Source of the DNA: Desulfobacteraceae bacterium
Lineage (GTDB): Bacteria > Desulfobacterota > Desulfobacteria > Desulfobacterales > Desulfosalsimonadaceae
Direction: 5' to 3'
DNA length: 32,328 nucleotides
NCBI GenBank assembly: GCA_021737045.1
Contig: JAIPES010000023.1
Location: 1-32,328, forward strand
Below, piece after piece: positions 25,246 through 26,361 of this stretch. The position numbers were made by a program, and so were the translations under genes. The notes under the pieces were generated by a model. It ran no database searches. It was given only the letters and a program-made list of their open reading frames with translations, and was not told the origin of the DNA. Position 1 is the first letter of the stretch; every line of letters starts with the position of its first letter.

Positions 25246-25284
25246 GGGTTTACCTCTATAACAAAGCGTGCATTTTATTGGGTT

Positions 25285-25436
25285 GATGGCGCCGTAAAAA
25301 GTCCAATATCTGCGTTACGCGCAATTTTTCAGAATTTCACGTACGGCTAAGTACGCTGCATTCTTCGAAATTGCGCAGGCCTTGATCCTGAACTTTTTAC
25401 GGCGCCATCTGAAATCAGACTTTTTACGGTGCCATC
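25285..25436. mobile_element. MITE-like palindromic element, copy A (complete, with 8-bp target-site duplication)
   Basis: Ends GATGGCGCCGTAAAAAGTC...GACTTTTTACGGTGCCATC (TIRs, 1 mismatch in 19). Flanked on both sides by ATTGGGTT (25277-25284 and 25437-25444). Internal imperfect hairpin GCGCAATTT...CACGTAC-GGCTAA-GTACG...AAATTGCGC. A second copy is at 32054-32191. Confidence 0.85.
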
Positions 25437-26361
25437 ATTGGGTTGGGGTTTCATATATTTTTTTGAATTCCTCGATCTGCCGGCGGACTTCTTCTGCGGC
25501 CCCGCCCCTGTTCTCCGGAACTTCTGAGGCGGATTGATATTTTTTGCGCACGGTGCTGATGTCAAAATCAGATGCCGGTACTCCCGAAATCCGGTCCAGT
25601 TTTTCCACGGTCACGGCCCGGGCAAGACGGCCGTTTTCATAAAATTCGATTTTTCCGGGATAGCGGATGCGGTCGTCAAACCGCTGCCAGTCAAGATAGC
25701 GAATTTCAAATGCCGGCTGCTGCCCTGTCTTTTTGGCCGGGGCCACGATCCAGCGCACGGGCAGAAACGTGTTTTTGTCAAACCACACCTGGGCGCGGCT
25801 CAGGTCGGGATATCCGGCGCCGGCCACGTAGACGGTTTTTTTGTTGAGCCGGCCCAGGCTGGAAATGTTCATGTCAACCCCGAGCTGCTCCAGGTGCCGT
25901 ACCAGCGGAGGCCGGGATGAAAACATGAAAAGGTCCTTGTAACAGGCATACCACTGCCGGCTGTCCTCGAGGATCTTGCCGTCAAGGACAAAAAGCTGTG
26001 ATCCGGATGATTCGATATAAATCTGACTGAAATCCGGGGCGTTGATATCGGATCGATAGGCCCCGGGCCTGCTGTAGCGAACGGTTTGGGAAAAACTGGC
26101 CGGCCCGGAGGCTTCCGGGTCTGAAACTTTTTCAGGATCCGCACTGGTTTTCCCAAGCCTTTCAGCACCCTGGCTTTTGCCGTCGGCTTCATCGGGATAC
26201 ACATGAAGCTGCTGGGTGATTTCCATCTGATCGGGCAGGTTCAAATGTTCTTGCATCTGTTCGGCCACAAACGGCGCCGGCAGGACATAGCCCGACGCTG
26301 CTGTGCAAACAGCGGTCGCCAGAAGGCAGGCCAGGGAAAATATCACAGCAGACCGCAGCAT
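25435..26361 (-). CDS. Secreted hypothetical protein (possible LolA/LppX-like fold)
   Basis: 308 aa with N-terminal signal peptide (MLRSAVIFSLACLLATAVCTAASG); beta-rich body with VWFDKNTFLPVRWIV...FEIRYLDWQ, reminiscent of outer-membrane lipoprotein-sorting/LolA-like proteins. Family assignment tentative. Confidence 0.6.
   Translation of the reverse strand: MLRSAVIFSLACLLATAVCTAASGYVLPAPFVAEQMQEHLNLPDQMEITQQLHVYPDEADGKSQGAERLGKTSADPEKVSDPEASGPASFSQTVRYSRPGAYRSDINAPDFSQIYIESSGSQLFVLDGKILEDSRQWYACYKDLFMFSSRPPLVRHLEQLGVDMNISSLGRLNKKTVYVAGAGYPDLSRAQVWFDKNTFLPVRWIVAPAKKTGQQPAFEIRYLDWQRFDDRIRYPGKIEFYENGRLARAVTVEKLDRISGVPASDFDISTVRKKYQSASEVPENRGGAAEEVRRQIEEFKKIYETPTQ

Follow-up and report, generated by a model that had tools for sequence, protein, structure and literature searches.

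A MITE family of Desulfobacterales that restores the stop codons it interrupts, and its probable autonomous partner

Insertion sequences of the ISNCY/ISDol1 group are 1.6-1.9 kb long and make duplications of 6-7 bp, and their type comes from Desulfococcus oleovorans. In the IS1182 family, ISPse1 is 1653 bp long with a 4-bp duplication (PMC3281130). Among miniature elements, MITEAba12 of Acinetobacter spans 111-114 bp, is flanked by 9-bp duplications and carries the ends of ISAba12 (PMC6382973), and most repeats of the Correia/NEMIS, ERIC and RUP-like kinds have a TA motif at their ends (PMC2229807). Here we describe a MITE in a Desulfobacteraceae bacterium that sits within a stop codon. A simple rule, T at the end of the target and GA at the start of the element, lets a mobile element occupy a stop unseen by the protein, and there is direct before-and-after evidence for it. 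We also identify a likely autonomous partner for a very abundant repeat of uncultured Desulfobacterales, one that is found at several contig ends in this MAG.

Structure and setting of the element

The window, the whole 32,328-nucleotide stretch analysed, is contig C74 of a 2.86-Mb, 148-contig genome (G000; here the host genome) whose assembly is 88% complete. The element lies between two minus-strand genes, with the following parts.

23599..25245, minus strand: downstream gene, CTP synthase (pyrG; CTP_synth_N 8.5e-127, GATase)
25277..25284: target-site duplication, copy 1, ATTGGGTT
25285..25436: complete MITE, 152 bp, recognised from its sequence and from 40 full or near-full copies in the host genome at 94-100% identity
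25285..25303, plus strand: terminal inverted repeat, first end, GATGGCGCCGTAAAAAGTC
25285..25409: imperfect palindrome of 125 bp, the bulk of the hairpin, recognised from the fold
25391..25409, minus strand: third, internal copy of the terminal repeat
25410..25417: 8-bp spacer TGAAATCA separating the internal and outer terminal repeats, a layout that recurs in other genomes
25418..25436, minus strand: terminal inverted repeat, second end, GACTTTTTACGGTGCCATC (GATGGCACCGTAAAAAGTC on the minus strand)
25437..25444: target-site duplication, copy 2, ATTGGGTT
25435..25437, minus strand: TGA stop codon of the upstream gene, with T from the duplication and GA from the element end
25435..26361, minus strand: upstream gene, 308-aa protein with a signal-peptide-like N-terminus
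32054..32192, minus strand: second MITE copy near the contig end, decayed, with one terminal repeat lost and its right limit approximate

An earlier note on this DNA had proposed a 152-bp element between perfect 8-bp duplications, and both copies are exact. The terminal inverted repeats are 19 bp long and complementary at 18 of 19 positions. The note had called the element palindromic, which is true of 125 bp only: this palindrome, closed by the left and internal copies of the 19-bp end, is followed by the spacer and the third terminal repeat. Elsewhere in the genome the 125-bp palindrome is also found by itself, flanked by a duplication of its own (L236:9056-9180 and L232:1830-1954). An open-reading-frame check found no ORF of at least 80 aa inside the 152 bp; the element is thus short and carries no transposase gene.

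Reading the minus-strand ORF bears out the proposal that the T|GA junction recreates the stop and leaves the protein end unchanged: the frame closes as ...ETPTQ-TGA, with T at 25437 in the duplication and GA at 25436-25435 in the element. The 308-aa protein has no match in Pfam. An Rfam search gave a sub-threshold chance match only, outside the 152-bp element; a scan for promoters and terminators at the MITE found nothing convincing, with no T-tailed terminator at the element ends; and a plasmid collection held no match to the element. Short tandem repeats of the GACGGGTGACAGGTGAC type occupy positions 31960-31995 of the window, immediately ahead of the decayed second copy.

Copies, duplications and empty sites

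Allowing up to three mismatches, the terminal 19-mer has 401 matches in the 2.86-Mb host genome, against 3 for a reversed control, which excludes a chance origin of the element. Sampling 829 kb of this genome gave 60 candidate elements, which scales up very roughly to a copy number of about 200. Of 22 tight copies, 19 match their consensus at 95-99% identity, and three score about 0.5, probably through wrong orientation. The end sequence was found in 35 of 36 genomes of the bacterial family, at hundreds per genome, and similar sequence was found in 70 stretches of genome contigs, mostly from Desulfobacterales MAGs. Subfamilies with differing internal sequence have the three-repeat layout in common. 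Within the partial coverage of our literature searches, we found no paper on this family. We conclude that the element is a non-autonomous MITE of a new family, though of a kind already known.

Several related arrangements were also seen. The repeat probably interrupts the assembly, since three contigs of the host genome (C27, C83 and C93) start within a MITE copy. A minimal palindrome of 63 bp, whose ends are related (GATGGTGTCGTAAAAA), lies at L113 656-718 in a member of the Desulfobulbaceae (UBA2775) and suggests that shorter relatives of the MITE exist in another lineage. At 16186-17070 of L273 (G016 contig C5), an 885-bp segment has matching ends and AAAATT flanking both sides; it encloses a 151-bp MITE, again with AAAATT, and a nucleotidyltransferase-like reading frame, read by eye, from near 16414. 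This segment may be a passenger-gene cassette.

Exact duplications were verified for 75 copies in four genomes and measure 6 bp in 50, 7 bp in 22 and 8 bp in three. The note had taken 8 bp to be a property of the family; since 72 of the 75 have 6 or 7 bp, that length must be given up, but the copies lacking an 8-bp duplication, which the note had regarded as telling against its reading, leave the identification as a MITE intact. In the 6- and 7-bp cases from one run on the host genome, 30 of 32 targets start with A and all 32 end in T. The duplication in the window, although of a rare length, still keeps the A...T pattern.

We compared the locus next to CTP synthase among relatives. In G009 the element is absent and the site reads CCAACACAATGAAAATG. 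This matches the empty site predicted by the note, CCAACCCAATAAAATGC, except for one substitution and one extra G, and because of these differences the ancestral stop could have been TAA or TGA; the expected TAA is thus not fixed. The same insertion, internally deleted, is present in G008. In G012 (L177) and G013 (L175), the stop codon of the orthologous gene holds other members of this end family, whose duplication is AATATT; as the position is common to these two genomes, at least one independent second insertion took place at this stop. A clean pair comes from another gene, which is SiaC-like. The empty site in the sister genome G008 (L350) reads ...GGAATTG-TAA-CGGC, and the occupied site in the host genome (L349) reads ...GGAATTG-TGA-TGGC[element]-AATTGT-AACGGC, so that the stop has changed from TAA to TGA. 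Together with the empty and occupied pair L172/L174 from the comparison next to CTP synthase, this pair demonstrates recent mobility. The note's wider claim, of a mobile non-coding MITE family able to land at gene 3′ ends, is upheld by the duplications, the copies and the empty sites.

The hairpin itself invites another explanation of these positions, namely that it is kept for an RNA role at gene 3′ ends, as a terminator, an RNase III site or an mRNA stabiliser (compare ERIC, REP and NEMIS), rather than placed there by transposition. Since the pairing in an RNAalifold consensus fell on the outer ends and not on the hairpin, a named structure was used to test the latter. The fold is far stronger than that of shuffled sequence (z about -7), and its pairing is kept across subfamilies, with both-side changes in 27 cells against 12 in shuffles and 86.6% of cells paired against 34-41% when slid. 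Copies are also in excess at gene 3′ ends. However, part of the pairing can be put down to inverted-repeat ancestry and the keeping of transposase sites, many copies are located upstream of genes or in the gap between divergent ones, no T-tailed terminator was found at the element ends, and the target duplications and empty sites show recent transposition. We therefore consider an RNA role unlikely as the explanation.

Stop codons at the insertion sites

Insertion sites were classed after each duplication-verified element and one copy of its duplication had been removed in a script. A simple dicodon finder, self-trained, supplied the gene calls (coding 86-91%), and the expectation was drawn from all noncoding-permissible positions matching A....T. 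As the note had suggested should be checked, stop codons are enriched: 18 of 66 non-coding insertions overlap a stop, against 5.4 expected (P about 4e-6). Stops restored by T|GA number 8, against 2.3 expected (P 0.002), and stops left intact ahead of the element 10, against 3.1 (P 0.001). In all 14 stop insertions that were translated the protein end is unchanged, six of them via T|GA. No stop is split as TA| among the classed insertions, and the A....T motif leaves no such positions. The one site pair common to the host genome and G008 does not involve a stop.

With T as the last base of the target and GA as the first two bases of the element, an interrupted stop is turned into TGA, and an insertion there is harmless because the stop's own T ends the duplication. 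The note had stated that any in-frame final T gives TGA, which is correct only when a codon starts with that T and is overstated otherwise. We conclude that stop restoration is general and follows from the target rule and the GA end. Such insertions would be neutral. In the literature that our searches covered, which was partial, we found no account of stop codons restored by a MITE, nor a description of the stop-codon rule and its statistics.

Why stops are enriched is a separate question. The excess could reflect survivorship only, or an artefact of gene calling combined with an AT-rich target preference, with no special link to stops. Insertions into coding sequence are scarce, at 9 of 75 sites with several of these at the ends of called genes, although most of the sequence is coding, and selection against noncoding positions near promoters may inflate the share of stops. 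Against this, the expectation was already matched to the motif and restricted to noncoding-permissible positions, yet both the restored and the intact classes exceed it, and the listed sites show no clear avoidance of 5′ ends. We give this explanation a little less than an even chance. That the transposase is truly biased towards gene ends or stop codons, with T-ending targets and GA ends forming a 'safe-harbour' strategy for cost-free spread, seems improbable to us.

A candidate autonomous partner

At L142 and L151, a 580-aa transposase with DUF772 and DDE_Tnp_1_6 domains (PF05598, PF13751) sits in a segment of 1.9 kb with GATGGCACTGTAAAAAGTC and GACTTTTTACGAGTCCATC at its limits. The NF033593 transposase family had been considered as a partner in its own right; most of its matches lack the ends, and it led to these two loci. 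In L113, L121 and L127, long terminal-repeat pairs that were candidates for autonomous elements proved to enclose ordinary genes. An order-level search, using an alignment of three such transposases as the query, detected the transposase in 42 of 390 genomes. At 17 loci we delimited elements of 1.88-2.09 kb, nearly all 1.88-1.92 kb, that have ends of the GATG type and are flanked by exact duplications of 6-8 bp; because the end finder slightly favours the core motif and duplications in its scoring, individual weak loci may be wrong. In the genus of the host, the insertion sequence at L154 (G013) looks intact, with the duplication AAAACTT and an end match of 18/19. The insertion sequence at L260 has GATGGTCTCGTAAAAAGTC at both ends, a sequence that recurs exactly as a MITE end from another genome (L066). 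The MITE and the insertion sequence have their ends in common but not their internal sequence. The transposase matches NF033551, the NCBIfam IS1182 model, along most of its length at 145-168 bits, and its match to NF033593 is weak. As the NF033551 score falls below the cut-off of 270 bits, we describe the partner as IS1182-like and leave it outside IS1182 itself.

We reasoned that the MITE might instead be moved by a different transposase, with the DUF772/DDE insertion sequence resembling it at the ends only. No transposase of this group was found in the host assembly or in the well-assembled G008, although both hold many MITE copies; the source may have been lost, be missing from the assembly or be more divergent. 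Across the genomes of the family, transposase presence does not track MITE number. Bases 6-9 of the MITE end (CGCC) also differ from those of the commonest insertion sequence end (nCTC). However, the MITE and the insertion sequence have the 19-bp end layout and the 6-7 bp A...T duplication in common, in some cases their ends are exactly identical, and an intact-looking copy is present in the same genus. A different transposase thus appears very unlikely, and the ~1.9-kb DUF772/DDE insertion sequence is the probable autonomous partner, judged from sequence.

We consider it highly probable that a DUF772/DDE (IS1182-like) transposase moves the MITE in trans, and that T-ending targets and GA ends spare the stops. 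The transposase would recognise GATGnnnnCGTAAAAAGTC ends and make a duplication of 6-7, occasionally 8, bp at targets that are usually A...T. An insertion that splits a stop would do so after its first T, rebuilding TGA with the GA that opens both element ends, and one just beyond a stop would keep it whole inside the first duplication. Sparing the stop codons would let such copies persist.

The partner resembles the IS1182 family in its NF033551 match and its PF05598 and PF13751 domains; unlike ISPse1 and IS1182, it is ~1.9 kb long, makes a 6-7 bp duplication and stays under the NF033551 cut-off. With the ISNCY/ISDol1 group it appears to agree in length, duplication size and host group, in a comparison by description, and its weak NF033593 match points the same way. 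The Correia/NEMIS, ERIC and RUP repeats are likewise abundant intergenic hairpins with terminal repeats, but the present element is unrelated to them in sequence and has GA ends. Like MITEs in general, MITEAba12 among them, it is short, non-coding and present in many copies, with target duplications and with inverted ends that it has in common with an insertion sequence. Unlike MITEAba12, it has forms of 125 and 152 bp, duplications of 6-7 bp, a third, internal terminal repeat and a DUF772/DDE partner.
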